Positions 14,674 through 32,157 of a DNA stretch of 64,000 bases are shown piece by piece (position 1 is the first letter of the stretch; each line of letters begins with the position of its first letter). The stretch covers positions 1 through 64,000 of the forward strand of contig NZ_JAGOBJ010000004.1 of NCBI RefSeq assembly GCF_017983445.1, written 5' to 3'. Source of the DNA: Halomonas sp. (GTDB lineage: Bacteria > Pseudomonadota > Gammaproteobacteria > Pseudomonadales > Halomonadaceae). The position numbers and the translations under genes were made by a program. The notes below the pieces were generated by a model, which searched no databases, was not told where the DNA came from, and saw only the letters and a program-made list of their open reading frames with translations.

Positions 14674-15627
14674 TCACTTCCCTCGATAGATACGCAGGAT
14701 ATCGGCCATGGTCGCCAGCGCGATCTCTGCCGGTGTTTTGCTCCCCAGCTCCAGGCCGATCGGCATCACGATCCGCGCGATATCGATGTCGGACAAGCCG
14801 CCAGAGCGCCGTAAGCGTTCGGCACGTTGGGCTGAGGTCTTTTTTGAGCCCATGACGCCGATATAAAAAGCGTCAGTACGTACCGCCTCGATCATCGCCA
14901 GATCATCAATGCGCGGATCGTGGGTCAGGGCGACAATCGCCGTGGCTGCGTGGCAGGCTCCTGAAGCTATGAACTGCGAAGGCAGCACCGCCTGTACCTC
15001 GACACCCGGAACATCGAAGCCGCGCCGCATCTCCTCGCGTGGGTCGCAGGCAATGACTTCAAATCCCAGTGCCTGAGCGAACTGGGCACAAGGGGTAGCG
15101 ATGGCGGAAATGCCTGCGATTACCAGGCGCAGTGAGGGGCCAATACGAAGATAGGCGGCCTGCTCGTCGCGCCTAACGACAGGCCCTGGGCCTTCGGGCA
15201 CGATAAAGCGCTTACGCGAACCGTCCAGCATCACATGGCGTATCAATGGCTGACGCCCCATCAGCGTGGCATGCATGACTTCAAGATGAATCAGCGTGTC
15301 GGCGCTGGGCTCAAGCCGCTCTACCAGCACATCAAGACGTCCGCCGCAGGGCAGTCGAATGGTGTCATTGCCTTCCCCACCATAATGAATCAGTTGAACC
15401 GCTGAGGGCGAAAGAGCCCCTTGTTCCAGGCGTTCCAGAAAGTTCTCTTCAACGCACCCGCCGGATAGCGAACCAATGAACTGCTCTTTTGAGCACGCGG
15501 CCATGATGGCGCCAGGTTCTCTGGGTGACGAGCTAAAGGTCGACAGTACCGTGCACAGCCAGACCACATGGCGCTGGTTAGCCCACTGGAGCGCGCGCTT
15601 GATGACCTGAAGATCAAGATGCTGCAT
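14674..15627 (-). CDS. XdhC/CoxI-family maturation factor
   Basis: This 317-residue protein has the XdhC N-terminal domain with the SLSGGCVEEN motif (about 75-84) and a C-terminal Rossmann-like domain (about 165-300). XdhC proteins protect and sulfurate the molybdenum cofactor and insert it into xanthine-dehydrogenase-type enzymes. Its ATG overlaps the TAA stop of the molybdenum hydroxylase gene upstream by one base (TAATG), implying translational coupling. It most likely matures that enzyme. No other Mo-cofactor gene lies nearby, so cofactor synthesis must be encoded elsewhere. Confidence 0.88.
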   Translation of the reverse strand: MQHLDLQVIKRALQWANQRHVVWLCTVLSTFSSSPREPGAIMAACSKEQFIGSLSGGCVEENFLERLEQGALSPSAVQLIHYGGEGNDTIRLPCGGRLDVLVERLEPSADTLIHLEVMHATLMGRQPLIRHVMLDGSRKRFIVPEGPGPVVRRDEQAAYLRIGPSLRLVIAGISAIATPCAQFAQALGFEVIACDPREEMRRGFDVPGVEVQAVLPSQFIASGACHAATAIVALTHDPRIDDLAMIEAVRTDAFYIGVMGSKKTSAQRAERLRRSGGLSDIDIARIVMPIGLELGSKTPAEIALATMADILRIYRGK

Positions 15628-17906
15628 TACAACGCCACCTCGGCGCGTTTTGCTGTAGAAATATCGCTTTGCTGAAGCTTTTGACGAACGGTCTCGGCGG
15701 TAAACGGCGGGTGAGTAAAGCGCACCCCGGTCGCATCGAACAGCGCATTGGCAATGGCCGGAGCGCCGGGGAGCGACGTGGACTCACCCACACCTAGCGA
15801 CGGCTGATCCTTTCGGTCCAGCATTAGAAGCTGAATGTCCGGAAGTTCTGAAAAGCGCAGGATGGGGTAGCTGCCCCATTCGCGATTCATGGGTAAGCCC
15901 TTTTCGAAGCTCACCCGCTCTTTCAGGGTTCGGCTAAGCGTCTGAATGACATTGCCATGCACCTGATGACGTACGCCGTCGGGGTTGATCATGAGTCCGG
16001 CGTCTTGGCCCACGTACAGGCGCTCAATAATGATCCGCCCACTGGCGGGATGCACTTTCAATTCGACAACCCAGGCCGCCAGCGCGGCGCCGAACCCGGG
16101 GAATTTGCTATGCACGTACTGCGCGTAGGCAAATCCTCGCCCGTAATGCCAGTCCGCTTCGCTATGGGGAACAGAGCATGCTGAGCGAGTCTGCCAACTG
16201 GCGCGTGCTGCCAGGGCCTTGACGAGTTCTATGGCGCGCGTATCGGTTAAATGCCGAATTCGGAAGGCAATAGGGTCTTCCCTGGCCAAGTAAGCCAGCT
16301 CATCGATGGCACTTTCATGCGCAAACGCGTTCGGCATGGCGGAAACTCCGCGTAGCCATGAGGCGCGCACGAGTGTAGGCACATCATCACAGGCAATGCG
16401 CCGGTGCGGATAGCCATAGGGCGGAACGGATGTGCGATCCCCCATCTGGAAGGGCACGTCGCTGGGCTGCTGTGCGCCTGTCAATAAAAGCGCCAGAGTC
16501 GGTGCATTGTTGGAAGGGTAGCGCGCCACGAAACGGTAGCCTGTCAGATTACCGTCGGCATCGACCCCGGCATCGACGTCCATCCGCTGGGCGGCTCCCT
16601 TGGGCTCCCAGAGGTGTTCCTGCTCGCGGGTGAGCTGGACGCGCACGGGGCGACCCACTGCCCTTGATAACAACGCCGCATCAGCGCCCACATCATCGGC
16701 GCAGTTGCGGCCGTAACAGCCGGAGGCCTCCATGCGCGTAATGGTAATAGCGCTTTCATCCAGCAGCATCAGGCGTGACAGCTCGGCACGCAGGCTATGT
16801 GGGTTCTGCGTGCCTGACCAGACGTGCAGTTGGTCATCACGGTAGTGAGCCACCGAACATGAAGGCCCAATTGAGCCATGCAGTTGAAAAGGCCAGACAT
16901 AAGCGCGTTGAACACGATGTCGAGCATTCTTAAGGGCATCGTCGACCTGGCCTTCTTCAAGCAGCAGGCGCCTTTGCATCGGTAGTTCGTCCAGCGCCTG
17001 CTCTATGTTATGCATGGGAGGCAGAGTGTCGGGCTTACGCCAAACGACGTTGAGTTTACGGGCGATAGCGGCGGCTTGCTCTTCGCGTTCAGCCACAACG
17101 CCGATAAAATCGCCAATCGTCACGACGCTGACCAGCCCAGGCATGTCAGCGACCGAGCTTTCATCGACGGATATCAAGGAATTACCGACGAAGTCACCCC
17201 GGTCATAGCCACTGTAGGGAGGCCGTATCACGTGGCCATAGAGCATGTCCGGCAGGCGAAGGTCATGAACGAACGTCAGTGCCCCGATTACCTTGCCGGG
17301 GATATCCACGCGAGGTGCTGCCTTGCCCACCAGGCTGTATTGATGGGTAGGTTTAAGGGGCACATCGTCGGCAAGCTTCAGGGTATGCCGGGCGCCGGCG
17401 AGCAGTTCGCTATAGCTAATGCCCGGTAATGTGTCGTCTAACGGGGCAATATGCCCGGCGCGGCAACAGAGCCTGGATTGAGATAGACCAAAATGAAGAG
17501 CCGCGCGATACAGTAAGTATTCACGCGCCTGAGCGGCAGCACGACGAAGCGGCTCGGCCGTAATCTGGATAGTGGCGCTAGCAATCGTCGGCCCTTGATT
17601 TGGCACCTCGAACGGGTCACCCAGAACCATGGTGACGGATTCAAGCGCTACCTCAAGCTCTTCAGCCACGATCTGGGCAAGTGCTGTGCGTATGCCTGTG
17701 CCAAGATCCACATGACCGTTGAATGCCAGCACCTGGCCCGTACTCAGGATAGCAATGAATATTTCGGGCTCGGTAGGCACGAAATTAGAATGTGTACCCG
17801 GTTGTCCCGGCGCGGGCTTGGGAGGCGTAATCGGATCCCGATACACGATAAGAAGATCTGAATCATGTAGAAGGGCTTTTCGATCATAGACTTTGTTGCC
17901 GGTCAT
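15627..17906 (-). CDS. Mo hydroxylase large subunit, probable catalytic nicotinate dehydrogenase subunit
   Basis: This 759-residue member of the xanthine dehydrogenase/isoquinoline oxidoreductase family contains the full two-part Mo-pterin domain. GHVDLGTGIRTALAQI lies near residue 65, ASGCYGRNCADDVGADAALL is in the middle, and the catalytic-Glu motif GVGE is at 705-708. There is no signal peptide and no cytochrome part. It aligns along its last 550 or so residues with the N-terminal half of the NicB-like protein at 26264, ending in the same IANALFDATG segment. The setting, divergent from a NicR-like regulator and within a nicotinate pathway cluster, suggests it hydroxylates nicotinate to 6-hydroxynicotinate with NicA and NicB. 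AAGGAGG precedes the ATG. Another N-heteroaromatic substrate remains possible. Confidence 0.8.
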   Translation of the reverse strand: MTGNKVYDRKALLHDSDLLIVYRDPITPPKPAPGQPGTHSNFVPTEPEIFIAILSTGQVLAFNGHVDLGTGIRTALAQIVAEELEVALESVTMVLGDPFEVPNQGPTIASATIQITAEPLRRAAAQAREYLLYRAALHFGLSQSRLCCRAGHIAPLDDTLPGISYSELLAGARHTLKLADDVPLKPTHQYSLVGKAAPRVDIPGKVIGALTFVHDLRLPDMLYGHVIRPPYSGYDRGDFVGNSLISVDESSVADMPGLVSVVTIGDFIGVVAEREEQAAAIARKLNVVWRKPDTLPPMHNIEQALDELPMQRRLLLEEGQVDDALKNARHRVQRAYVWPFQLHGSIGPSCSVAHYRDDQLHVWSGTQNPHSLRAELSRLMLLDESAITITRMEASGCYGRNCADDVGADAALLSRAVGRPVRVQLTREQEHLWEPKGAAQRMDVDAGVDADGNLTGYRFVARYPSNNAPTLALLLTGAQQPSDVPFQMGDRTSVPPYGYPHRRIACDDVPTLVRASWLRGVSAMPNAFAHESAIDELAYLAREDPIAFRIRHLTDTRAIELVKALAARASWQTRSACSVPHSEADWHYGRGFAYAQYVHSKFPGFGAALAAWVVELKVHPASGRIIIERLYVGQDAGLMINPDGVRHQVHGNVIQTLSRTLKERVSFEKGLPMNREWGSYPILRFSELPDIQLLMLDRKDQPSLGVGESTSLPGAPAIANALFDATGVRFTHPPFTAETVRQKLQQSDISTAKRAEVAL

Positions 17907-17990
17907 GTGGCCTCCTTGGTTGTTTTTAGATGCTCAGGTCTTTCATGTATCGCGAGAGGTTGCTTGAGTTTAATATAAAATTATAATGTG

Positions 17991-18002
17991 TACGCCATAA
18001 AT
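17991..18002. promoter_or_regulatory. Candidate shared regulator site (NicR?)
   Basis: TACGCCATAAAT in the divergent Mo-subunit/nicR promoter region matches TACACCATTTAT at 25424-25435, in front of nicC and nicA, at 9 of 12 positions. Shared control by one regulator is inferred; I do not recall the true NicR consensus well enough to confirm it. Confidence 0.25.
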
Positions 18003-18108
18003 TGGCGGTAAATCAGGCGGTAATTCTCGCGTTATACGTAAAGTTCTCTCTAGCCTTTTTCCACTGCCATACTTCAGTAACATCACTTCGCATCAGCAAG
18101 GAGTTTGA

Positions 18109-18594
18109 ATGACATCGGATCGTTCCCTCGACGTCCAGAAAAACGCACACCCAACACCATCTGAGCAGGGGTACGATTTTTCAGAACAGGTAGGCCATCT
18201 GTTACGTAAGGCCTATCAGCGCCACATTGCCATTTTCCAGCGCCATGTCTGCGATAAGCAGCTGACGGCCATTCAGTTTGTTGCGCTGTGCACAGTGATG
18301 GAGCGTGGGGCCAGCTCCTTGACCGATATCGTTAACGCCACGGCCATTGATCCTGCCACTGTTCGGGGAGTGATCAAGCGCCTCAAGGCCCGTGAATGGG
18401 TAACGCTGACCACCGACCCCAACGATCAACGCAAGGTGATGGTGGTGATTACCGAAGCCGGGGCCGCCATCGTTGAAGCGATGGTGCCTAATGCCCAGCA
18501 GATCAGCGATGCCACCATGCAAAACCTCAATCCCGCCGAGCGCGTCGCGCTGATGCACCTGCTGGAAAAAATGAATGCAGACCCCGTGCCATAG
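18109..18594 (+). CDS. nicR: NicR-like MarR-family regulator
   Basis: This 161-residue MarR-type protein has a winged helix-turn-helix (about 55-125: SSLTDIVNATAIDPATVRGV followed by IKRLKAREWVTLTTDPNDQR). In Pseudomonas putida the MarR-type repressor NicR controls the nic genes and is relieved by 6-hydroxynicotinate. Size, family and position next to the nicotinate genes support the same role here. It is divergent from the molybdenum subunit gene and convergent with the TTT transporter operon. A terminator hairpin includes its stop codon. Confidence 0.75.
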   Translation: MTSDRSLDVQKNAHPTPSEQGYDFSEQVGHLLRKAYQRHIAIFQRHVCDKQLTAIQFVALCTVMERGASSLTDIVNATAIDPATVRGVIKRLKAREWVTLTTDPNDQRKVMVVITEAGAAIVEAMVPNAQQISDATMQNLNPAERVALMHLLEKMNADPVP

Positions 18595-18609
18595 CACGGG
18601 AGATTTTTT
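18583..18609 (+). terminator. Rho-independent terminator of nicR
   Basis: CCCGTGC (18583-18589) and GCACGGG (18594-18600) form a 7-bp stem with a CATA loop. The stem contains the nicR stop codon and is followed by AGATTTTTT. Confidence 0.85.
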
Positions 18610-18629
18610 CCGTTTAGTGATTGCGACGG

Positions 18630-20147
18630 TCAACGCATCCTTACTCGTTTGACGTCGTTACTAAGTCGCACCCAAAGGGGTGCCAGCAGCGGCAGCACGA
18701 TGGCTAGAAGTGACAGTCCGAACAAACTCATGGCAATGGGGCTTTGTAGAAAAACCTCCCAGGATCCACGGCCCAGCAACAGGCTGCGACGCAGATTCTC
18801 CTCAAGCAGCGGCCCTAGGATCAAGCCGAAGGCCAGAGGGGCAGCGGGTAGCGACAAGAGATATAAGACGTACCCCACAGCGCCAAAGAAGAGCATGATG
18901 TAGACATCTGCCATGCTGCTGCGAATAGCATAGGCGCCCACCATGCAGAGCAGCGCAATGCCGATGAGCAGCGTGTGGGAAGGAATGCGCAGTACCCAAG
19001 GCAACCAGCGCATCAGTAAAAGACCGATGACCAGTGTGAGCACCAGCGCGAGAAAGAATCCGGCGTAGAGGCTCGAGACGAAACCTGGGTTTTCGGCGAA
19101 AAGCATTGGCCCTGGCCGCAGCCCATGAATCAGCAGCGACCCCATCAATACTGCCGTGATAGCGTCCCCCGGTACGCCCAGCGTAATCATCGGTATCAGC
19201 GTGCCACCGATGCTCGAACTGTTAGCGGCCTCTGGCCCCACCACACCTTCTACGGCGCCGTGTCCGAAACGCTCTGGGTGTTTGGAAAAGCGCATCTCCT
19301 GAGCGTAGGCGATAGCTACCGCGATAGCCGATCCGGCGGCGGGTATAGCGCCAACAAACGCTCCGATAAAGGAGCCGCGTAGCATTGACGCCCAGCGTCC
19401 AGCGAATGTGCGTAAATTCGGTAGGGGCGACTGAGTAGATTGCATGTCGAACTCAGGAGTGACGCGGTGAGAGCCGTGCAGATTTCTAAGTACTTCAGCG
19501 AGCCCGAACAGTCCCACGCACAGCGGTACCAGCTCGATACCACCTTGCAAGCCGCGCGTCTCGAAGGTGAAGCGTGAGACGTCAGTTAGAGCATCGAATC
19601 CCACCATCCCGCAAAGTAGACCGACGGCGCCGACCAGCAATCCGCGTACCGTTGAACCGGGCGAGGCGTAGGCAAGTAGCACCAAGCCGAACACCGCAAT
19701 AGCCGTGAACTCGGGGCTTTTGAAGCGCATCGCGATCGAGGCCAGCATGGGAGCAGTGACCACCAGAAGCACTAGACCAATGACGCCTCCCACACTTGAG
19801 GCGATCAGCGCATAGGTCAACGCTTCCTTGGCTCGGCCTGCACGGGCAAGAGGATGACCATCCAACTGAGTGACAATTGCACCCGGTGTGCCTGGAATGT
19901 TGATAAGGATGGCGGAGATTGAGCCGCCGTAGACGCTGGCAACGAACACGCAGAGTAGAAAGAGGATGGCAAATGCGGGATCCATACCGAAACTTAGCGG
20001 TAGCAGAATAGCTAGAGCCATGGTGGAGCTAACGCCCGGCAGGGCGCCGAGCACGATGCCAAGCAGAGTGCCTAGCACGGCAAGCATCAACCCCCATGGC
20101 GACGCGAGCGTTGCCAGGAGCGAGGTAAAGAAACTGTCGATCAGCAT
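18630..20147 (-). CDS. TTT transporter large permease (TctA family)
   Basis: This 505-residue membrane protein with about 12 helices is the large permease of a tripartite tricarboxylate transporter. The TctA signatures GALPGVSSTMALAILLP near the start and VEGVVGPEAANSSSIGGTLI in the middle are clear. The ATG at 20147 has AGGAGA upstream and matches the TctA N-terminus (MLIDSFFTSLL); an in-frame ATG 12 codons earlier lacks this. It ends the tctCBA-type operon. In this position the system probably imports nicotinate or a related pyridine carboxylate, but that is inferred from context only. Confidence 0.92.
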   Translation of the reverse strand: MLIDSFFTSLLATLASPWGLMLAVLGTLLGIVLGALPGVSSTMALAILLPLSFGMDPAFAILFLLCVFVASVYGGSISAILINIPGTPGAIVTQLDGHPLARAGRAKEALTYALIASSVGGVIGLVLLVVTAPMLASIAMRFKSPEFTAIAVFGLVLLAYASPGSTVRGLLVGAVGLLCGMVGFDALTDVSRFTFETRGLQGGIELVPLCVGLFGLAEVLRNLHGSHRVTPEFDMQSTQSPLPNLRTFAGRWASMLRGSFIGAFVGAIPAAGSAIAVAIAYAQEMRFSKHPERFGHGAVEGVVGPEAANSSSIGGTLIPMITLGVPGDAITAVLMGSLLIHGLRPGPMLFAENPGFVSSLYAGFFLALVLTLVIGLLLMRWLPWVLRIPSHTLLIGIALLCMVGAYAIRSSMADVYIMLFFGAVGYVLYLLSLPAAPLAFGLILGPLLEENLRRSLLLGRGSWEVFLQSPIAMSLFGLSLLAIVLPLLAPLWVRLSNDVKRVRMR

Positions 20148-20169
20148 GGTCGTCTCCTGACCGTGGGCG

Positions 20170-20694
20170 TCATAGTGCGACACCCAGCAGAGTGATGAAG
20201 ATTAGTTGCAGCGCAAGGCCCAGCAGCGCGGCGGTCACGATGCCGAGCAGTAGGGCACGACGCAGGCGATGGCAGCGACGATACTCCAGCCAGACGAGCC
20301 AGGGAGCGGCGAAAAGCCAAGTCGCTGGCAAGAAACCAAGCGATGTCACCATACTCGGCAGCAACAGAAGAGAAGCAAGCAGGGCTACCGCGTGCATGTG
20401 ACGGCTGAAAGGAGCATCACTTTGGGGCGGCGTCTGCTCGGTTGTCTTGCGCGAGTGCAGTGCCCAACTGGCCAGCCCCTTGATAAGGAGAATACCTCCT
20501 CCCAATAACATGAAGCTTAGAACGGTCAGCGGCAGCAGCGCGGGCCCCGGATCAGGGCTCCGGCCCAGCGTGTTCATCAGCATCGTATTGCCGCTTACAT
20601 CGATGAACCCGATAAGGGCGATGCCACTGAAAAGAAGTCCACAGAGGAGATCGCGCCCGGTGGCGCGATCTAGATGAGTGTTAAACGAACGCAT
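20170..20694 (-). CDS. TTT transporter small permease (TctB family)
   Basis: This 174-residue protein has four hydrophobic segments (about 15-33, 50-73, 100-125 and 145-172) in the TctB pattern: a first pair, a variable loop, then a second pair. It pairs with the large TctA permease, 22 bp downstream, to form the membrane unit. AGGAG lies upstream of the ATG and can pair with an upstream CTCCTA, so a small hairpin may limit its translation. Sequence conservation in this family is low, so the call rests on topology and gene order. Confidence 0.85.
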   Translation of the reverse strand: MRSFNTHLDRATGRDLLCGLLFSGIALIGFIDVSGNTMLMNTLGRSPDPGPALLPLTVLSFMLLGGGILLIKGLASWALHSRKTTEQTPPQSDAPFSRHMHAVALLASLLLLPSMVTSLGFLPATWLFAAPWLVWLEYRRCHRLRRALLLGIVTAALLGLALQLIFITLLGVAL

Positions 20695-20701
20695 GGCGTT
20701 T

Positions 20702-20722
20702 CTCCTAAGGCGTGAGTAGGAG
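20702..20722 (-). promoter_or_regulatory. Possible RBS-sequestering hairpin before tctB
   Basis: On the minus strand CTCCTA (20717-20722) can pair with TAGGAG (20702-20707), which holds the tctB Shine-Dalgarno sequence, around a 9-nt loop. This could lower permease translation relative to the binding protein. The stem is short, so confidence is modest. Confidence 0.35.
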
Positions 20723-20725
20723 CTG

Positions 20726-21700
20726 TCAGCGCGTCAGCGCGATGTCCACCAAATTGGCGGAAGAAAGGATCTCGTAGACCTCATCGGCGCGCTGGGTAAG
20801 GTACTCCGAGCTTGCCTCCTTGGGTTGCGGAGCTATCACTAAGCCCATCTCGCTTGCTGCCGACTGAAACGCCTCGTCTTCGAGAAGGGCGTAGAACGCC
20901 GACTCCAACGTATCGCGGCGCTCATCGGGTACGCCTTTTGGCAGATAAAGCATAAAGAAGTCCTCCGCCGTGAAGTCATAACCTTGCTCCTTGAAGGTAG
21001 GGACATCCGGTGCAAAGGGATGGCGCGCATCCGAGGCCACGCCCAGTAGCTTGAGTTGCCCCGAGGAGTGCTGGTCGGCTAGCAGCGGTATTGGCAGCAG
21101 GGCGGACATGACCTCGCCAGAAAGCAGTGCCGAGAGGGTGGGAGCGTAACCCTGGTAGGGGATCTTCGTCAGCGTAACGTCGAACTGCGACTCGAGCATG
21201 CTGGCTGCGATATAGGAAAAGCCGCCGGGCGAGTCGTTACCGTTGATGATCGCCCCGGGTGCGTCCTGAAGCGTTTCCAGGTAGGCATCAATATCCTTGA
21301 TACCCGTATCGCTGCCCACTGCGAGTGCGGCCGGCTCGGGGCCGATGAAGACCAGCGCCTCAAGCTCGTCCAACGGCGTGGCGTTAGGGTTCATATAGCT
21401 TTGGGCGATAGCGTGGGTGCCCATCATGCCCAGTGTATAGCCATCTGGATCGGACTCAGCTACGTGGCGAATACCCGTGGATCCGGCTGCCCCCGTCACG
21501 TTCTGTACGACTATGGGGACAGAGAGTACCGTGCCAGCATGCTCGGCCATAAGACGGGCCGTCAGGTCATAGGCGCCGCCGGCGGGCCAGGGAACGACGA
21601 GTGTGAGCGCACGCTCGGGAAAGTCATCGGCGAGAAGCCCAGAGCTTAGGGGTAGGGTGAGGCCCAAAACGGACGCTATCATCAAACGGCGAAGTATCAT
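20726..21700 (-). CDS. TTT periplasmic binding protein (TctC family)
   Basis: This 324-residue protein has an N-terminal signal peptide (about residues 1-24, cleaved near LLA-DD) and the TctC/Bug fold. The opening FPERALTLVVPWPAGGAYD is the family signature, followed by VVQNVTGAAGS. Bug-type proteins bind small carboxylates, including nicotinate in some Bordetella members. It is the first gene of a three-gene TTT operon located just after the nicCDEF unit. Nicotinate or a pathway intermediate is the likely ligand, by context. It is not preceded by a membrane gene, so the operon has its own promoter or reads through a weak hairpin. Confidence 0.9.
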   Translation of the reverse strand: MILRRLMIASVLGLTLPLSSGLLADDFPERALTLVVPWPAGGAYDLTARLMAEHAGTVLSVPIVVQNVTGAAGSTGIRHVAESDPDGYTLGMMGTHAIAQSYMNPNATPLDELEALVFIGPEPAALAVGSDTGIKDIDAYLETLQDAPGAIINGNDSPGGFSYIAASMLESQFDVTLTKIPYQGYAPTLSALLSGEVMSALLPIPLLADQHSSGQLKLLGVASDARHPFAPDVPTFKEQGYDFTAEDFFMLYLPKGVPDERRDTLESAFYALLEDEAFQSAASEMGLVIAPQPKEASSEYLTQRADEVYEILSSANLVDIALTR

Positions 21701-21831
21701 GTCGGTTACCTATTGTGATGTCAGTAGAATCAACGCGAAGCGTTTTTGTATTTTGTTGATGGGTGCTGGCGTGCGTTGAGTCGGTCCTCCTTTTAGTAAA
21801 TCGTGAATGGTTATGCGTGCGTGATGAAACA

Positions 21832-21859
21832 CCGAAAGGCCGGGTGGGCGGCCTTTCGG
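21832..21859 (-). terminator. Hairpin after nicF
   Basis: CCGAAAGGCC (21832-21841) and GGCCTTTCGG (21850-21859) form a perfect 10-bp stem with an 8-nt loop, just past the nicF stop codon on the minus strand. The T-run is weak (TGTTTC), so some readthrough into the TTT operon is possible. Confidence 0.7.
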
Positions 21860-21867
21860 ATTTGTAG

Positions 21868-22548
21868 TCAGTTTCCCAGCAAATGATCGATCGCTGCCTG
21901 ACGGTCGATGACATCGCCGTACTTGCTGTCGATGTCGAACAGGTTCGCCTCGTGCGGATCAGGGTGGCGATCGCCCACACAGTCGCGTACCACCATCACG
22001 CGAAAACCGTACTGCAGGCCATCGACGGCGGTGGCGCGGATGCAGCCGCTGGTCGAGCAACCGGTAACGATAATCGTGTCCACATCCATCGCCACCAGCA
22101 TGGAAGCGAGCGAGGTGCCAAAGAAGGCACTCGCGTACTGCTTGGTGATAACTGGCTCCGTTGAGTCCGGCACCACTTCAGCACAGAACTCGGCGAAGGG
22201 GTTGCCTGCCACCATGGCGCGCATGACCGGCGATTTCTTCACCCAGATGCCACCGTCGACCTGATCCGGGGCGTGGTAAAGAATATTGGTATGGATGACC
22301 GGGGTGCCACTCTGCCGGGCGGCCTCCAGAAGCGGCGGCATATTGGCCACGGCCTCGACCACGCCGGGGGCATAAAGCGGTGACTCCTCAAGCACGTAGC
22401 CCTGCATGAAGTCGACCACTAAAAGCGCCGCCTTGCGCCCAAAGCCGATGCGCCCGTCCCAGACGCCCCGATAGTTGTCTTGAACCGAGTTGTCTTGAGC
22501 TGAATTGCCTTGAAGCGGGTTGTCAGAAATTGTGTCGTGGGTTGCCAT
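21868..22548 (-). CDS. nicF: Maleamate amidohydrolase NicF
   Basis: This 226-residue cysteine hydrolase of the isochorismatase-like family converts maleamate to maleate and ammonia in the late part of nicotinate degradation. The catalytic triad appears as D46 (in LLVVDFMQGY), K136 (in VITKQY) and C169 (in CSTSGCIRAT). The ATG at 22548 has AGGAG upstream, which excludes the earlier in-frame ATG that would overlap nicE. It is the last gene of the nicCDEF unit, 10 bp after nicE, with a hairpin downstream. Its N-terminus has a Gln/Asn/Asp-rich stretch of about 20 residues that looks extra and dispensable. Confidence 0.9.
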   Translation of the reverse strand: MATHDTISDNPLQGNSAQDNSVQDNYRGVWDGRIGFGRKAALLVVDFMQGYVLEESPLYAPGVVEAVANMPPLLEAARQSGTPVIHTNILYHAPDQVDGGIWVKKSPVMRAMVAGNPFAEFCAEVVPDSTEPVITKQYASAFFGTSLASMLVAMDVDTIIVTGCSTSGCIRATAVDGLQYGFRVMVVRDCVGDRHPDPHEANLFDIDSKYGDVIDRQAAIDHLLGN

Positions 22549-22558
22549 GGGCGTACTC

Positions 22559-23320
22559 CTAGTAGGCGCCGGAGAGCAAAGCACCCGCGCCGGGTACTAC
22601 CGGCTCCAGATCCAGCGCCTTGAGCATGGCGTAGGTAGTGGCGATGGCAGCAGTGACCACGGGCTTTCCGGTCAGCGCTTCGACCTTGGCGACGGCCGGA
22701 AGTGAAGGCATCTGCACGCAGGCCGAGAGCACGATGGCGTCGATATCGCTCAAGTCTAGACTGGCCACGATCTCGGGCAGCTTGGCCGGATCATGACGCG
22801 CCACATCAAGGTTGTTGGGAATTTCCAGCGCCCGATAGTCGACCACCTCAACCCCTTCCTGGCGGATATAGTCCACCACCATTTCGGTCAGTGGCTTCAT
22901 GTAGGGAGCAACCACCACGACGCGCTTGGCCTTCATGACGTGCAGGGCGTCTACCAAGGCGCCTGCGCTGGTAACTACTGGCGTGTCGCAGCCGTTCTCT
23001 TCAGTGCGGCGACGCAGACGCTTCTGTGATTCACGATGATAGCCCGGGCCCATCGACATGATGGCCACCAGGCAGGCGTATCCCATCACGTCCACGGCGG
23101 CATCGGAAAGCTCCAGCGCGCAGCGGTCTGACTCTCCGTCCATGGCGGCCAGCTCGTCTTTACTTACCGTTTTCATGCGCATGCGGCTTGAGTGAAAGGT
23201 GAAGCGCTCAGGACGAATTAGCTGCCGCGCGGTGAGCATGGCGGGGATTTCCGTCTCCATGGTGATATTGGAGCTCGGCACGATTTGGCCGATACGATAG
23301 GTCTTGGTTTCAAGTGTCAT
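22559..23320 (-). CDS. nicE: Maleate isomerase NicE
   Basis: This 253-residue Asp/Glu-racemase-fold enzyme converts maleate to fumarate, the entry point to the citric acid cycle. The two catalytic cysteines are C83 (in YACLVAIMSMG) and C201 (in LSACVQMPSLPAV). The N-terminus YRIGQIVPSSN and the C-terminal LEPVVPGAGALLSGAY closely resemble Pseudomonas NicE. A longer in-frame ORF overlaps nicD, but the ATG at 23320 has GAGAGG upstream and matches the known N-terminus. It starts 13 bp after the nicD stop codon. Confidence 0.96.
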   Translation of the reverse strand: MTLETKTYRIGQIVPSSNITMETEIPAMLTARQLIRPERFTFHSSRMRMKTVSKDELAAMDGESDRCALELSDAAVDVMGYACLVAIMSMGPGYHRESQKRLRRRTEENGCDTPVVTSAGALVDALHVMKAKRVVVVAPYMKPLTEMVVDYIRQEGVEVVDYRALEIPNNLDVARHDPAKLPEIVASLDLSDIDAIVLSACVQMPSLPAVAKVEALTGKPVVTAAIATTYAMLKALDLEPVVPGAGALLSGAY

Positions 23321-23333
23321 GGCAATCGGCCTC

Positions 23334-25785
<2,452 letters not shown>

Positions 25786-26271
25786 ATGACGCTGAAGCTA
25801 AAAGTGAATGGACAGAACGTTGAGCTGGCCATTCCGCCCACAACACCCCTGCTCAACGCACTGCGTAATGACCTGGCGCTAAATGGCCCGAAGTATGGCT
25901 GTGGGCTGGGCGAATGCGGTGCGTGCAGTGTGCTGGTGGATGGCATGGCTGCCAGAGCTTGCGTGCTGACTGTCGCCTCGGTGGTTGGACGAGAAATCAC
26001 GACGCTGGACGGGCTGTCCGCTACTGGCCGCCTAGACCCCGTCCAACAGGCGTTTATCGATGCGCAGGCCGCACAGTGCGGCTATTGCCTGAATGGCATG
26101 GTCATCAGCATTCGTTCGTTGTTGAATCACACCTCTACACCTTCATCCGAACAGATTGGGGCGGCGCTGGAGCATCATCTTTGCCGTTGTGGCACGCACC
26201 TGGAAATCCTGGAGGCCGCCCATCGCGCTGTCGTTCTCAACGCTGTAGCGTTGGGAGGCATTGATGACTGA
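25786..26271 (+). CDS. nicA: Nicotinate dehydrogenase 2Fe-2S subunit NicA
   Basis: This 161-residue protein carries two [2Fe-2S] clusters. The plant-ferredoxin-like cluster is set by CGLGECGACSVLVDG plus a later Cys (ARACVL). The C-terminal cluster is set by CGYCLNGM and HLCRCGTH. It passes electrons from the molybdenum site to the cytochrome subunit during hydroxylation of nicotinate to 6-hydroxynicotinate. Size matches Pseudomonas NicA (about 157). The ribosome-binding site is weak. Its 3' end overlaps nicB by 8 bp. Confidence 0.95.
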   Translation: MTLKLKVNGQNVELAIPPTTPLLNALRNDLALNGPKYGCGLGECGACSVLVDGMAARACVLTVASVVGREITTLDGLSATGRLDPVQQAFIDAQAAQCGYCLNGMVISIRSLLNHTSTPSSEQIGAALEHHLCRCGTHLEILEAAHRAVVLNAVALGGIDD

Positions 26272-29200
26272 GCCCCACTCTATGGTGCAGCCCTATCAGG
26301 CTGCCTTGCCCGCCGGTTTCGAGAACCTGCACTACGGTGTAGTAGTACGCCCGCCTCACTACCGCTGGAACGGCGAACAATTTACGTGTGACCAGTTGGT
26401 GCATGTTGATACCTCGGCGTTGAAAACGTTGTCATATGATGCCAAAGCGGTGATTGAGGGTAATTTTGTAGGAGTTGTGGCAAACAGTGTCGAAAATGCC
26501 CGCGATGCCGCAAAGCGTCTGATCCTGAGCTGGCAGCCATATGGCCCGCTATCGGCTACATCAGCACAGCAAGCACGCGTAAACGAAGAAAGCCACAAGC
26601 CTCCGGTGCACCAAAAAACCGGCGTAGCTGATATCGAAGGCGACCACGCTGACAGGTATGAACGCGACTACGGCTGGCCCAGCCGCATGCGCTGGGGGGA
26701 AGCCGAAGGCTGGGTGGTTGCCGGTTATCGAAGCGACCGCCTTGAAGTCTGGACACAAACCACAACGCCACAAGCACTGCGTCAGGATCTGAGCGCGCTG
26801 ACAAAGCTGGATGTGGACCAGATAGCGCTTTACACCAGCGAGGGAGCCGAGCGGCACGTAGCCTCCGGGCTTGGCCGCCACTGCGGTGACGATGCGGCCG
26901 CGGATGCTGCACTGATGGCGCGCGCGCTGGGTCATCCGGTCGCTGTTTGGCTGGATGCGCAATACGGCGCTGATGTGAAGGCGCTAGGACAAGCACAGCG
27001 CCTGTCAGTCAGTGCCGCTTTTGATGAAGGGGGCCGTATAGAGCGTTATGGCTATCGGCAAGCGTATGCCGGTGGAGAAGTAGCGGTTGTCGGGCTGTTT
27101 CTAAGCGGGCGAGTCCTTGCACAGAGGACTTCAGAGGACGCGGATAAGCCGCTGTATTCTCCATATACCTTCCAGTATGCGCACCTGTCGGCCAACACTG
27201 AGCGCCCCTTCGGGCAGCCGTTGAACGATACTTTGCTGGGTATTCAGCAGACCTTCGCCCGTGAATCATTTCTCGATGAAGTCGCCCGTGCGCGGGGCCA
27301 GGACCCGCTAGCGTTACGCCTGCACTATCTTGACGACGCGCGCGGTCGCGAGCTTATTGAATCGGTTGCCAAGCGAGCCGACTGGCAGATAGACCTTCCT
27401 TCTCGTTCAGCAACGAGTGATGTATTGCAGGGCCGTGGTCTGGCGTATGCACAGTTACCCGACCGTCAACAGCGCCTGGAAAGTGACGTACGTTCTGCCT
27501 GGATTGCCGATGTCGAGGTCAATCGAATCACGGGGAGCGTACAGTTGACGCGCTTGGTCGTGGGCCAGGATTCGGGCGTTGAGGTTGATACAGCACGTTT
27601 GCAACACACGCTTCAAGCGCGTGTATTAGGCGAAGCGCGGCCGCTGCTTGGCAGTGAGCCTGCTTTCGATGAGTGGGGCGATGGCAGTTTAGACGCCAAA
27701 AAAGAGTCATTACTGGTTAGGCGTCAGCCTTCGTTTGCAAGGCAGGTGGTAACATCAGACGAAGCATCCGTCGCGTTGCCAGTCACCCTGGAGGATACCG
27801 AGTTTTCGCCGGGTGTCGCCGTTATCGCCAATGCGCTGTTCGATGCCACCGGCATACGTTTTCGCCAGCCGCCTTTCACGGCCAACCGGGTTAGGCAGGC
27901 GCTACAAGAGCAGGATCTGGAAGCATCCCAAGGTCGCAATAGCCTGTTTTTACCTCGCAAAAGTAAATCGCCGCGACGCCGGTGGTTGGCCGCTGCTGCT
28001 TTCATGACGGTTGCCGGTAGCGCGGCCATGGCCTGGCCCTGGAAAGGCGCCATTGCGCCTGTCTCCCGGCCAGCAGCCAATCTCTATTCCGCCGAGACGA
28101 TCGAGCGCGGGCGGCTTGTGGCGGCGGCGGGCGACTGCGCGGCCTGTCACACCGTGGGCGGCGGGGCCATCAATACCGGCGGTCACGCTTTTGAGACGCC
28201 ATTCGGTACGCTTTACAGCACCAACATCACGCCCGACGAGGCGACCGGTATTGGTAGCTGGTCCTATGCCGCTTTCGAGCGTGCGATGCGCCACGGCATT
28301 GGTCGTGATGGTCGACATCTGTATCCGGCGTTTCCGTATACGGCGTTTGCCAAGACCAGCGATACCGACCTTCAGGCACTCTATGCTTACCTGATGTCTC
28401 AGCCTGCCGTATCGGCGCCAGCGCCTCAGAACGCTTTATCCTTCCCTTTCAATGTGCGTGCGCTAATGGCGCCCTGGAATGCGCTTTATCATGACCCAAA
28501 GCCATTTCAGCCAGACCCTGCGCAAAGCGAGCTCTACAATCGTGGCGCTTATCTTGCCGAAGGGCTGGGGCATTGCAGTGCCTGCCATAGCCCGCGCAAT
28601 GCGATGGGCGCGGAAAAGAATGGTAAGGACTACTTTGCCGGTGCCGTCGTAGATGGGTGGGAGGCGCCTGCCTTGAATACACTTTCGCGCTCCCCCGTTG
28701 GCTGGAGCGAAAGCTCGCTATACGACTATTTACGTCACGGTGAATCGGCCCTGCATGGTGTTGCATCAGGGCCAATGGCGCCCGTGGTCGCCGGGTTGAG
28801 CGAACTGCCCGAGTATGATGTTCGCGCCATTGCCCATTATGTAGCGCAGCAGATGCAGGCGCCGTCTGGGGACAGTGAGGCACAGCAAGCCGAGGCTAAC
28901 CGCCGCTTGGCCGCAGCGGCGGTTAGCCCCAGTGGTATGGAGGAGGGCGAGCGCCTGTTTGAAGGTGCCTGCGCGGCCTGCCATCTGGATAACGGCTTGC
29001 CATCGTTTACCCGAGCCAGAACGTCGCTTGCGTTGAATACCAATCTTTACAGCGAGCGCCCCGATAACGTCATTCAATCGATTTTAGGCGGTGTACATGC
29101 TGACACCGTCCCTGATGTAGGTAATATGCCCGGTTTTGCCGACAGCTTCAGCGATACGCAAGTCGCCACCCTGGCCACCTATCTACGGGCGCGCTTCGCG

Positions 29201-29287
29201 CCCGACGCACCTCCCTGGCAACAACTTGAACAACGCGTTGCCGCAATACGCCAGCCTCATCACAACAATACGCACTCTTCTCTCTGA
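26264..29287 (+). CDS. nicB: NicB-like protein: degenerate Mo domain fused to triheme cytochrome c
   Basis: This 1007-residue protein has an N-terminal Mo-hydroxylase-like region (about 1-560), a membrane helix (about 574-592) after the basic RRR at 571-573, and three cytochrome c domains with CAACH at 625, CSACH at 771 and CAACH at 903. Positive-inside logic puts the first part in the cytoplasm and the haems in the periplasm, making an electron path to the respiratory chain. P. putida NicB is about 1187 residues. Here roughly the first 200 residues of the Mo domain are absent, and the GVGE catalytic motif is replaced by TLED (508-511) just before the conserved IANALFDATG. It may therefore be an electron-transfer subunit partnered with the 759-residue protein at 15627. 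The ATG at 26264 follows GGGAGG; a TTG one codon earlier is less likely. Confidence 0.88.
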   Translation: MTEPHSMVQPYQAALPAGFENLHYGVVVRPPHYRWNGEQFTCDQLVHVDTSALKTLSYDAKAVIEGNFVGVVANSVENARDAAKRLILSWQPYGPLSATSAQQARVNEESHKPPVHQKTGVADIEGDHADRYERDYGWPSRMRWGEAEGWVVAGYRSDRLEVWTQTTTPQALRQDLSALTKLDVDQIALYTSEGAERHVASGLGRHCGDDAAADAALMARALGHPVAVWLDAQYGADVKALGQAQRLSVSAAFDEGGRIERYGYRQAYAGGEVAVVGLFLSGRVLAQRTSEDADKPLYSPYTFQYAHLSANTERPFGQPLNDTLLGIQQTFARESFLDEVARARGQDPLALRLHYLDDARGRELIESVAKRADWQIDLPSRSATSDVLQGRGLAYAQLPDRQQRLESDVRSAWIADVEVNRITGSVQLTRLVVGQDSGVEVDTARLQHTLQARVLGEARPLLGSEPAFDEWGDGSLDAKKESLLVRRQPSFARQVVTSDEASVALPVTLEDTEFSPGVAVIANALFDATGIRFRQPPFTANRVRQALQEQDLEASQGRNSLFLPRKSKSPRRRWLAAAAFMTVAGSAAMAWPWKGAIAPVSRPAANLYSAETIERGRLVAAAGDCAACHTVGGGAINTGGHAFETPFGTLYSTNITPDEATGIGSWSYAAFERAMRHGIGRDGRHLYPAFPYTAFAKTSDTDLQALYAYLMSQPAVSAPAPQNALSFPFNVRALMAPWNALYHDPKPFQPDPAQSELYNRGAYLAEGLGHCSACHSPRNAMGAEKNGKDYFAGAVVDGWEAPALNTLSRSPVGWSESSLYDYLRHGESALHGVASGPMAPVVAGLSELPEYDVRAIAHYVAQQMQAPSGDSEAQQAEANRRLAAAAVSPSGMEEGERLFEGACAACHLDNGLPSFTRARTSLALNTNLYSERPDNVIQSILGGVHADTVPDVGNMPGFADSFSDTQVATLATYLRARFAPDAPPWQQLEQRVAAIRQPHHNNTHSSL

Positions 29288-29308: not shown

Positions 29309-29497
29309 ATGAAACGCAGCAAGTGGATATGGGTAGTCTGGGTAGTGGTTCTTTTGAGCTGTCTTGTGCCCTATACCCTGTTAACGAATGTCGCGGCCTG
29401 GTACGGCAGTTTCCTTTTCTGGACCTGCACAGGGCTTGTAGTAATCGCACTGAATATCTTCATTACTAAGGATTTCGAGGAGCACGACCATGACTGA
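29309..29497 (+). CDS. Small symporter-associated membrane protein (DUF3311-like)
   Basis: This 62-residue protein has two hydrophobic helices (about 7-26 and 33-52) and an acidic, His-containing tail (FEEHDHD). Short two-helix proteins of the DUF3311 type are commonly encoded just before sodium:solute symporters, and this one overlaps the next symporter gene by 8 bp. It probably assists that transporter, as YhdT is thought to do beside PanF; this is inferred from position and size. A GAGG sequence precedes the ATG. Confidence 0.7.
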   Translation: MKRSKWIWVVWVVVLLSCLVPYTLLTNVAAWYGSFLFWTCTGLVVIALNIFITKDFEEHDHD

Positions 29498-31001
29498 GTC
29501 AATGATCTGGTGGTCAATTGCCATCTATCTGCTGATCGCGGTCGGTATTGCCTTCCTCTCCCGCCAGGGGCCGGCGGAAAGCATGTCAGGCTACTTCCTG
29601 GGTAACCGACAGATGAACGGGTTCGTGTCGGCGCTAAGCTACAGCGCAACCACCTACAGTGCTTTCATGATGGTGGGCTTGGCCGGGCTGACCTATGCTG
29701 GCGGCGTCGGCGCGTTAGGCTTTGAGATCATCTATTTTGCTGGCGTTTCGCTGGTGGCCGTTTTCGGCCCGCGTTTCTGGGCGGTCGGCAAGAAGTTTGG
29801 TTTTGTCACGCCCAGTGAAATGCTGGGGCATCGCTATAACAGCAAGCATGTCGCAATGGCTGTTTCGATTGCCAGCTGCATCTTTTTGATCCCTTACTCT
29901 GCCGTTCAGCTCGCCGGGGTGGGTTACCTGCTCGAAGGCATGACCGATGGCGCCATCACGTTTACTACTGGAGTGGTAATGGCCACGGCGATAGCGGTTT
30001 TCTTCTCCTATATCGCCGGTATTCGCTCGGTGATGTGGACCGACTCGCTGCAAGCGTTGATGATGATCGTTGCCTCGACGCTGGTGGCCTTTCTGGTCAT
30101 CCAGGGCCTGGGCGGCTTTAGCGGTCTGTTCGGCACGCTTGCAACCGAGCACCCTGCCTCGCTCAGCGTGCCGGGGCCGGGACTTTTCAGCCTGGTTACC
30201 TTCCTAGGCTTGAGCATTCCCTGGTTCTTCTTCAGCCTGTCCAACCCGCAGGTGAGCCAGCGTCTTTTCATGCCGTCTTCCCTGCGCGCCATGCGTCAGA
30301 TGCTGATCGGTTTTCTGGTGTTCGGCTTCATTTATACGCTGGTATCCGTGCTGTGGGGCTTCTCGGCGCTGGCGGCGTTCCCCGAGCTTGCACGTGCCGA
30401 CCTTGCGACACCCGCACTGCTGGCGTCTGACTTTATCCCGCCGGTGCTGGGTGTCATCGTCATGATCGGCATCATGGCTGCTGCCGTCTCAACGATCGAT
30501 TCGATCATGCTGACCCTGGCCTCCATGCTGTCCCGGGATGTCTACGCCAACGCCAAATCGGGTGTGGATGAAAAGCGCCAGCTGCTGATGGGCAAGATCG
30601 TCGTACCGGTGATTGCGCTGTTGGCATTGGGTTTTGCTGAGCTGCAGCTGGATTTGATCGCCGTACTTTCAGTAGCGGCGTCATCAGGCCTGGTCGCCAT
30701 GGTGCCTGCCATTATCGGCGCCTTCTACTGGAAACGTGGCACCGCCACCGGTGCGCTGGCAAGCGTCGTGGGTACCAGCGTGTTCGTCCTGGTGATGTAT
30801 GCCACGGGTAACTCCCTGCTGGGCTTACCTGCCGGTATATGGGGCATCTTTGTTTCAACGTTCCTATTTGTGGGCGTAAGCCTTGCCACTAAACCGCATA
30901 AAGCCTCCGCCGATGCCTTCTTGAGCGCCATTTCTGAAGAGCTGGGACGTAAAAAGCGCGCGCCCGTCAGTGCGCCGGCATCTCAGAAAGCGGCTGTGTA
31001 G
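29490..31001 (+). CDS. Sodium:solute symporter (SSS family)
   Basis: This 503-residue membrane protein has about 13 helices in the LeuT-type SSS arrangement. Family marks include GYFLGNRQM after TM1, SATTYSAFMMVGLAG in TM2, and GIRSVMWTDSLQALMMI. The C-terminal tail is basic and Ala-rich. GAGGAG precedes the ATG inside the upstream small gene, so the two are translationally coupled. It sits between nicAB and nicX on the same strand, so Na+-driven uptake of nicotinate or a related pyridine acid is the best guess. The substrate cannot be read from sequence. Confidence 0.9.
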   Translation: MTESMIWWSIAIYLLIAVGIAFLSRQGPAESMSGYFLGNRQMNGFVSALSYSATTYSAFMMVGLAGLTYAGGVGALGFEIIYFAGVSLVAVFGPRFWAVGKKFGFVTPSEMLGHRYNSKHVAMAVSIASCIFLIPYSAVQLAGVGYLLEGMTDGAITFTTGVVMATAIAVFFSYIAGIRSVMWTDSLQALMMIVASTLVAFLVIQGLGGFSGLFGTLATEHPASLSVPGPGLFSLVTFLGLSIPWFFFSLSNPQVSQRLFMPSSLRAMRQMLIGFLVFGFIYTLVSVLWGFSALAAFPELARADLATPALLASDFIPPVLGVIVMIGIMAAAVSTIDSIMLTLASMLSRDVYANAKSGVDEKRQLLMGKIVVPVIALLALGFAELQLDLIAVLSVAASSGLVAMVPAIIGAFYWKRGTATGALASVVGTSVFVLVMYATGNSLLGLPAGIWGIFVSTFLFVGVSLATKPHKASADAFLSAISEELGRKKRAPVSAPASQKAAV

Positions 31002-31125
31002 GGCTTTTTCTACCAACGCTATCTCTCGGTAACCGTCTGCCTTGAGGCTGGGCTGGTAAATCCAGCTAGCATCAGGGCAGCGGTCATCGCCTTCAACGTC
31101 ATGCTGACGATATGCAGGAGTGGTT

Positions 31126-32157
31126 ATGGATCACGCAAGCTTTACGGAAATCTGTCTTCATCAGTTGAAAATGTCCGGCGTCCAGTCCGATGAAAGGCTC
31201 ATCGTGCTGACTCAAGGTAACGATCGGCTCGATTATGCCGATGCCTTCATGGCTGCCGGGCAACGTCTGGGCGCCAATATGTACCATATGCGCCTGCCGC
31301 CACCGCCTCTTGTGGGTGGTTGGAACGTCGGCACTACCGGACTTGCTGCAATGCCCGAGGCGGTGGAGGCGCTCAAGAACTGCGATATGCTCATCGACTG
31401 TATCTTCCTGCTGTTCTCCCCTGAACAGATGGCCATTCAGGCGGCAGGCACCCGGATTCTTACCGCGGTGGAGCCGCCTGAGCTGCTGGCGCGCATGCTG
31501 CCAACCCAGGAACTCAGAGAGAAGGTCGAGATTGCCGCCGAGCTTTTGGCTAAGGCCAAGGTAATGCGCATCACTTCCGCCCATGGCACCAACGTAACTT
31601 ACCAGCTCAATACCTACCCGACAGTCGCTGAGTATGCGTGTACCGATGAGCCGGGCCGCTGGGATCATTGGCCGTCCGGCTTCGTGTTTACTGGTGGTGA
31701 TGACGATGGTGTGGACGGCACCATCGTTGTGGCGCCCGGTGATATCCTGCTGCCCCAGAACATGTATGTCCGCGAGCCGATCACTTACACCATCGAGAAG
31801 GGCTGGATTACCGATATTCGGGGTGGTCTGGATGCCGAACTGGTCAAGTCCTACATGGACAGTTTCAACGACAAACGCGGCCTGGGCATGAGCCATGTTG
31901 GCTGGGGCATGAACCCGGATGCCAAGTGGCATCGTATGGTACCCGGCGAGTTCCCTGGCGGGATGGGCATGGAGCCACGCAGCTTTTATGGCAACGTGAT
32001 GTTCTCCACCGGCCCCAATAACGAACTGGGCGGGCCCAATGATACGGCGTGCCATCTGGATATCCCCATGCGCAATTGCTCGCTATTTTTGGATGACGAG
32101 CCTGTCGTGGTCGATGGTGATATCGTTGTAAAAGAGATCCAGATGCTTCGCAACTGA
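31126..32157 (+). CDS. nicX: 2,5-dihydroxypyridine 5,6-dioxygenase NicX
   Basis: This 343-residue Fe(II) extradiol-type dioxygenase opens the ring of 2,5-dihydroxypyridine to give N-formylmaleamate. The metal ligands fit H257 (in GMSHVGWGM), H310 and D312 (in ACHLDIPMRNC), with the same 53- and 2-residue spacing as the H265/H318/D320 set I recall for P. putida NicX. DEPGRWDHWPSGFVFT is another strong match. I prefer the ATG at 31126 because AGGAG lies five bases upstream; a GTG at 31120 overlaps that site. It follows the symporter by about 120 bp and ends at a terminator. Confidence 0.96.
   Translation: MDHASFTEICLHQLKMSGVQSDERLIVLTQGNDRLDYADAFMAAGQRLGANMYHMRLPPPPLVGGWNVGTTGLAAMPEAVEALKNCDMLIDCIFLLFSPEQMAIQAAGTRILTAVEPPELLARMLPTQELREKVEIAAELLAKAKVMRITSAHGTNVTYQLNTYPTVAEYACTDEPGRWDHWPSGFVFTGGDDDGVDGTIVVAPGDILLPQNMYVREPITYTIEKGWITDIRGGLDAELVKSYMDSFNDKRGLGMSHVGWGMNPDAKWHRMVPGEFPGGMGMEPRSFYGNVMFSTGPNNELGGPNDTACHLDIPMRNCSLFLDDEPVVVDGDIVVKEIQMLRN

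Follow-up and report, generated by a model that had tools for sequence, protein, structure and literature searches.

Why should a single nicotinate (nic) gene cluster encode two proteins of the NicB type? The window analyzed here, i.e., the whole 64,000-nucleotide stretch of a Halomonas sp. contig, contains two such proteins, A and B, together with one small subunit, NicA. A first-pass annotation of this DNA had proposed that one nicB was duplicated and that the two copies then divided the labour. Support for this proposal comes from the domain anatomy, the phylogenetic trees, the residues lost, the neighbouring genes, and the co-occurrence described below. We consider it probable (roughly 0.78) that the sequences describe a three-gene nicotinate hydroxylase (NicA, A, and B) derived from a duplicated single-chain NicB, in which A would be catalytic and B would serve for docking and electron export.

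Organization of the nic locus and pairing of A with B

The features of the locus are given in Table 1. A lies about 8 kb from NicA and B, on the opposite strand. The NicC, NicD, and NicE proteins are 63-79% identical to those of the Pseudomonas sp. BYT-5 cluster. The cluster also includes a tripartite tricarboxylate-type transporter set (18630-21700, minus strand), in which TctC was recognized by Pfam and TctA and TctB are presumed from their position and look. This set is a candidate nicotinate uptake system that would replace the types named for other genera. Directly after B there is a sodium:solute symporter gene (Pfam SSF, 29490-31001, plus strand), homologues of which occupy the corresponding position in L104, L105, L110, L111, and L112. 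Further along, a 585-residue protein (34696-36453, minus strand) had no Pfam match at E 0.001 and resembles, as an impression only, a zinc carboxypeptidase.

Table 1. Genes, domains, and motifs of the nic locus, in window coordinates.
Feature	Position	Strand	Remarks
XdhC-family protein (Mo-cofactor chaperone family)	14674..15627	-	abuts A; Pfam XdhC_C, XdhC_CoxI; adjacency in relatives
A (NicB1-type), molybdenum hydroxylase large subunit	15627..17906	-	759 aa, complete, without cytochrome
GVGE of A, residues 705-708	15783..15794	-	
Gln367 of A	16806..16808	-	in 80/80 active-type rows and 2/58 B rows
N-terminal MoCoBD_2 stretch of A, residues 48-191	17334..17765	-	with GHVDLGTG; absent from B
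MarR-family regulator	18109..18594	+	
nicF, nicE, nicD, nicC homologues (nicotinate pathway)	21868..25384	-	between A and NicA-B
NicA, [2Fe-2S] small subunit	25786..26271	+	overlaps start of B
B (NicB2-type)	26264..29287	+	1007 aa; degenerate Mo-like domain, probable membrane helix, tri-haem cytochrome c
Pseudo-Mo domain of B, about residues 20-556	26321..27931	+	
TLED of B, residues 508-511	27785..27796	+	where A has GVGE; within low-confidence model stretch 471-513
Probable membrane helix / signal anchor of B, residues 572-589	27977..28030	+	RRR before; low model confidence
Tri-haem cytochrome c part of B, about residues 606-997	28079..29254	+	
Haem motif CAACH, B residue 625	28136..28150	+	
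Haem motif CSACH, B residue 771	28574..28588	+	
Haem motif CAACH, B residue 903	28970..28984	+	
nicX homologue	31120..32157	+	45% identical to BYT-5 annotated 2,5-dihydroxypyridine 5,6-dioxygenase

B-type genes, called by reading among the matches listed, were found in at least 45 of 275 Halomonadaceae genomes (that of the window included), and the locus of each of these 45 also has an A-type gene. The hosts include Vreelandella venusta, V. olivaria, V. zhanjiangensis, and V. sedimenti. The nearest named relative seen was V. zhanjiangensis, whose A is 93% identical to that of the window. The pair was also detected in Burkholderiales (Cupriavidus pinatubonensis, Alcaligenes sp., Pusillimonas caeni, and Caballeronia), where A accompanies B in 7/7 B-bearing genomes (at least 7 of the 399 sampled from the order of Cupriavidus). 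Since five candidates were scored per genome in the Halomonadaceae search and three in the Burkholderiales search (threshold 1e-20), absences make these figures lower bounds on presence.

Within 44 halomonad loci, A was intact in 43, the exception being the split copy of L060, and B formed one frame in 41, being broken in L042 and L073 and cut by the contig end in L067. B was one open frame in each of the ten Burkholderiales pairs. Internal stops or split frames break a copy of A or B in L060, L073, L042, and L090, which may reflect sequencing error or real decay. An apparent NicA-B fusion in L079 (a B of 1136 residues) was discarded as an over-long frame because its extra N-terminus comes from a different reading frame of the strand that encodes nicA, with which it overlaps. 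Separately, a NicA-like protein and a Mo subunit are joined in one 866-residue frame in L103 (6349-8949).

The gene neighbours of the two proteins differ. NicA overlaps B or lies within 90 bases of it in 42/44 halomonad loci, the two exceptions having a broken or cut B, and it has the same position relative to the cytochrome-bearing gene in 10/10 Burkholderiales pairs and in 11/11 fused loci examined, i.e., those with a single-chain NicB. XdhC, where present, is at least 7 kb from B, and it lies within 60 bases of A in 30/44 halomonad loci. One more halomonad locus has XdhC and a broken A, and in 13 of the 44 stretches no XdhC match was found, two of these stopping directly after A. In Burkholderiales, XdhC stands beside A in one of ten pairs. 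According to the accessible part of one source, XdhC-family chaperones act in the maturation of this Mo enzyme family (PMC2997495), so the adjacency of XdhC agrees with a Mo-bearing role of A in the pair.

The distance and strand of A, and the XdhC of its own that adjoins it, would also agree with two different enzymes sharing a locus, in which A would work with another small subunit on another substrate and NicA-B would serve a different reaction. Indeed, besides the one NicA at the locus, the genome of the window has two NicA homologues. However, both are located on other contigs, each of which carries another Mo-subunit match, and each paired locus has a single NicA match. Moreover, wherever B was found A was present too, and the fused NicB proteins checked, several of them from nic clusters, share 54-61% identity with A in their Mo part. 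Two separate enzymes are thus very improbable.

A complete molybdenum subunit and a degenerate copy

Both Mo-cofactor-binding domains were identified by Pfam in A, i.e., MoCoBD_1 and MoCoBD_2, the latter in two stretches of which the N-terminal one is the best. A also has the Glu of the GxGE motif and the cofactor-site Gln. We take this Glu to be catalytic, and Gln residues of the Q367 type to belong to the cofactor site, in Mo subunits of the Xanthine-oxidase family, and the GVGE of A would accordingly be the catalytic-Glu motif. The best solved sequence match of A was chain C of 8gy3, a membrane aldehyde dehydrogenase of Gluconobacter. The AlphaFold2 model of A (mean pLDDT 86.1, pTM 0.88) compares with this chain at TM 0.81/0.84. 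Judged from its sequence, A is a complete NicB-type (NicB/IorB-type) molybdenum subunit. Pfam and the alignment thus agree with the full Mo domain, bearing GVGE and no cytochrome, that the first-pass annotation had described, to which the minus strand is added here.

B was claimed to align with the last 550 or so residues of A, which is what BLASTP returned: A 220-753 matches B 21-556 with 176/565 identical positions (31%, E 7e-60), far above chance. The missing N-terminal stretch, put at about 200 residues, is indeed absent, with its size corrected to about 219 residues. The alignment likewise places TLED of B where A has GVGE. Pfam gave a weak MoCoBD_1 and cytochrome c domains in B, and MoCoBD_2 was not found there. 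Of the membrane helix and three CxxCH motifs ascribed to B, the haem motifs are present, and the helix is probable, being a hydrophobic segment modeled with pLDDT below 50.

The AlphaFold2 model of B is weaker than that of A (mean pLDDT 75.0, pTM 0.53). Parts of the Mo-like core are confident, with block means of 83-96 over residues 21-90 and 90-93 over 331-370, and so is much of the cytochrome. pLDDT falls below 50 over 471-513, the site of the would-be GVGE, and over 557-592, which holds the helix. Residues 578-996 have the cytochrome subunit of 8gy3 (chain A) as their best solved sequence match. The same chain is the best structural match of the model (TM 0.83 on target), and the front part of B is weakly like chain C (TM 0.44).

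Taken together, the two proteins correspond to one fused NicB. The single-chain NicB of Pseudomonas sp. BYT-5 has 1195 residues, of which 1-751 are matched by A (55%) and 767-1186 by the cytochrome part of B (52%), confirming the early remark that A plus this cytochrome sums to about the length of a NicB. Across fused NicB from BYT-5, Pantoea, Azospirillum, Mesorhizobium, and Paraburkholderia, the cytochrome of B is 52-54% identical, with A in the range given above, and an internal hydrophobic anchor similar to that of B is present. Fused NicB thus holds the Mo site and the haems in one chain of about 1190 residues, whereas in the window they are on separate chains. No second, degenerate Mo copy was seen near fused NicB in the stretches fetched. 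Besides the genera named, fused NicB was identified in Neorhizobium, Roseomonas, Methylobacterium, and four further genomes, and separate Mo-subunit and cytochrome genes in Erwinia, Pigmentiphaga, and one further genome.

The truncation of B is shared by its relatives. Homology with A starts at A residue 205-223 or so in most rows of both groups, the earlier starts being 172 (L079) and 193 (L078). The B proteins of Caballeronia are shorter, with 929 (L183, 707-3496) and 896 residues (L225, 12490-15180), and their front parts align over 432 and 365 residues, respectively. They possibly represent an independent reduction.

Loss of the cofactor site in B

Next we compared 80 active-type rows with 58 B rows (47 halomonad and 11 Burkholderiales). 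The active-type rows were 45 halomonad A, 11 Burkholderiales A, 3 NicB-like proteins with separate cytochrome, 12 fused NicB, and 9 of the 69 outgroup-class sequences. G64, G69, G71, Q367, R519, G651, Q655, G705, and E708 are present in 80/80 active-type rows. Among the B rows, the N-terminal motif is missing in 58/58, and the active-type residue is kept in none at R519 and G651, in one at Q655, in two at Q367, and in three at G705. B therefore lacks the complete cofactor site and catalytic Glu of a Xanthine-oxidase-family Mo subunit.

The earlier annotation had pointed to an acidic residue beside the lost motif, which could act as the base of a second catalytic Mo subunit with an altered active site. 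The residue does exist in TLED, and Glu occupies column 708 in 8/58 B rows. Nevertheless, it is unconserved among relatives, since those eight rows never have the GxGE context: their surroundings are gapped and unrelated, and across the B rows the column drifts among G, D, E, A, and others. Together with the missing N-terminal pterin-binding stretch, R519, and Q367, this makes a catalytic B extremely improbable, and we infer that B is without catalysis.

There are 541 columns with a residue in both A and B of the window. Of these, 54 have, in at least 90% of the halomonad B rows, a conserved residue differing from that of A, 72 keep the residue of A, and 102 A-conserved columns were lost. Among the halomonad B residues are W144, W150, W229, and Y234, which correspond to mostly Gly (or Ala), Cys, Gln, and Gln, respectively, in A and fused NicB. 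These bulky side chains may fill the emptied cofactor site of halomonad B. They are unconserved in Burkholderiales B, which counts against site filling as a general rule, and the other halomonad B-specific residues are likewise mostly not common to the two groups.

Descent of the pair

In a tree of the Mo domains (74 rows, 531 columns), all A sequences of both lineages formed one clade (99/94), as did all B sequences (94/97). A, B, and fused NicB were split from the outgroup with support of 100/100, and from the main separate-cytochrome group with moderate support (80/90). A tree of the cytochromes (50 rows) placed those of B among those of fused NicB (94/79). Two Caballeronia rows stood beside fused NicB rows, and B may have had a second origin in this genus. 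Tree tests rejected neither A and B as sisters (p 0.19) nor B outside fused NicB plus A (p 0.184), and neither a single B-cytochrome clade (p 0.128) nor a single fused-cytochrome clade (p 0.375). The exact placement of B is unsure because its branches are long and several Burkholderiales B rows have an odd letter make-up in the Mo tree, where the B of L115 and L117 join as long branches and that of L219 is less than half filled.

The presence of the pair in both Halomonadaceae and Burkholderiales, together with the trees, indicates that the duplication is old; a recent local duplication was ruled out on the same grounds. In the simplest history, a fused nicB would have been duplicated once, and the pair would later have been inherited or passed between the two orders. 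An old duplication of a fused nicB and the subsequent division of labour are well supported.

Selection on the Mo-like domain of B

If the Mo-like domain of B has no catalytic role, it could be a jobless remnant in slow decay, with the anchor and cytochrome being all that matters. To place a measure on constraint we used simple Nei-Gojobori dN/dS for 156 halomonad pairs chosen by an A dS under 1.2. The medians were 0.090 for A, 0.220 for the pseudo-Mo domain of B, and 0.094 for the B cytochrome, values that are descriptive because the dS of B is higher than that of A and near saturation in some pairs, and because the pairs share history. The pseudo-Mo median is thus about 2.5 times that of A, and the maximum over the 156 pairs was 0.55, i.e., all were below 1.

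On the one hand, this relaxed constraint is what a remnant would display, and so are the long B branches in the Mo tree, the disordered model stretch 471-513, the halomonad-specific residues mostly missing from Burkholderiales B, and the shortened proteins of Caballeronia. The latter, together with the higher dN/dS, suggest that part of the domain may be dispensable. On the other hand, dN/dS stays below 1 throughout, the frame of B is intact in nearly all loci of both groups (41/44 and 10/10), the columns conserved in halomonad B comprise both its own residues and those kept from A, and parts of the domain core are confidently modeled. We consequently see a pure remnant as unlikely. The Mo-like domain of B is under relaxed but real purifying selection, which suggests that it is probably a working pseudo-subunit instead of a mere leftover, and most likely it would act as a cytoplasmic dock.

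Proposed membrane sidedness and working of the enzyme

A simple pattern test for twin-arginine (Tat) signals was positive in 61/69 outgroup-class Mo subunits. It was also positive in the three separate-cytochrome rows classed with A (L113, L114, and L119; L100 was counted with the outgroup). These three are NicB-like Mo subunits that perhaps represent a pre-fusion state. By the same test, no Tat-like signal was found in 60 paired-type A rows, and the one positive among 12 fused NicB looks spurious. In the listed B and fused NicB, a hydrophobic segment, usually with basic residues before it, precedes the first haem motif and sits where separate cytochromes have their signal peptide.

The missing Tat signal in paired A and fused NicB, along with the internal anchor, points to the Mo domain inside and the haems outside. 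The natural reading is therefore that the Mo site would be cytoplasmic and the haems periplasmic, which would explain why the cytochrome-bearing B has a cytoplasmic Mo-like domain. A single helix would give no evident path for electrons from the cytoplasmic [2Fe-2S] clusters to the periplasmic haems.

The following sequence of events would account for these observations, with substrate, docking, membrane sidedness, and electron path being its conjectural parts. The ancestor would have been a single-chain NicB with Mo domain, signal anchor, and tri-haem cytochrome, the gene of which was duplicated. A would have retained the Mo site and dropped the cytochrome, and B would have retained the anchor and cytochrome, whereas its Mo domain would have been deprived of the catalytic residues and of the pterin-binding half at the N-terminus. 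The neighbouring XdhC would help to load A with sulfurated Mo cofactor. A would then hydroxylate nicotinate at C6 in the cytoplasm, using water, and pass two electrons to the [2Fe-2S] clusters of NicA. The cofactor-free Mo-like domain of B would dock A together with NicA on the cytoplasmic side of the membrane, and the periplasmic haems of B would hand the electrons to the respiratory chain.

A more specific version of this scheme is offered tentatively. The NicB lineage may have lost its Tat signal and gained a fused cytochrome, the signal peptide of which became the internal anchor, and the emptied cofactor site of B, filled in halomonads with the bulky residues given above, may have become a cytoplasmic platform that keeps A and NicA at the membrane. 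Mo and Fe-S centres would then lie inside and haems outside, with electrons possibly crossing the membrane by an as yet unexplained route. We regard this version as somewhat doubtful because the site-filling residues are not conserved in Burkholderiales B and the helix was modeled with low confidence.

Relation to known systems

Other arrangements of this enzyme family are known. Nicotinate dehydrogenase of P. putida KT2440 (NicAB) is of the two-component type with a fused NicB. The NdhSLM enzyme of Comamonas testosteroni JA1 is reportedly a three-subunit nicotinate dehydrogenase, and its cytochrome subunit is said to be of about 46 kDa and to have no Mo-like domain. Enzymes with separate cytochrome, such as 8gy3 of Gluconobacter and the Erwinia-type NicA-Mo-cytochrome operons, have folds like those of A and of the B cytochrome, but their cytochrome subunit has no Mo-like domain, unlike B. 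In addition, the Mo subunits of Erwinia and Pigmentiphaga have Tat-like signals, which paired A proteins do not.

Closest to the window are tripartite systems of NicA, NicB1, and NicB2, reported in Burkholderia gladioli and Bordetella in the portion of PMC10269826 that was available. The accessible text on Delftia acidovorans Cs1-4 describes a nicB2-nicA ... nicB1 cluster, with nicB2 adjoining nicA; nicB1, called an aldehyde dehydrogenase, stands at the other end of the nic genes (PMC4572682). The window and the Burkholderiales loci are alike in this respect: three genes lie in the nic cluster, with NicA beside the NicB2-type gene and the NicB1-type gene apart, a likeness of gene layout and names. 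The NicB1/NicB2 split has thus already been named in print, and the window is another case. Within the parts available, the tripartite reports describe no cofactor-less NicB2, no Halomonadaceae, and no Tat signal or topology (PMC10269826, PMC4572682). In the literature searched, we found no statement on a degenerate Mo domain of NicB2, which may nonetheless be in print.

The results presented here give the names NicB1 and NicB2 a physical meaning, i.e., the active and the retired copy of the same Mo subunit. They also raise the question of how electrons from a hydroxylase with Mo and [2Fe-2S] centres in the cytoplasm would reach c-type haems in the periplasm. To our knowledge, few enzymes of this class have a conserved pseudo-enzyme subunit of this kind. 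Nicotinate dehydrogenase is treated, in the accessible part of a review, as a biocatalyst with difficult expression (PMC10331938), and knowing which subunits are required would help in expressing it for that use.
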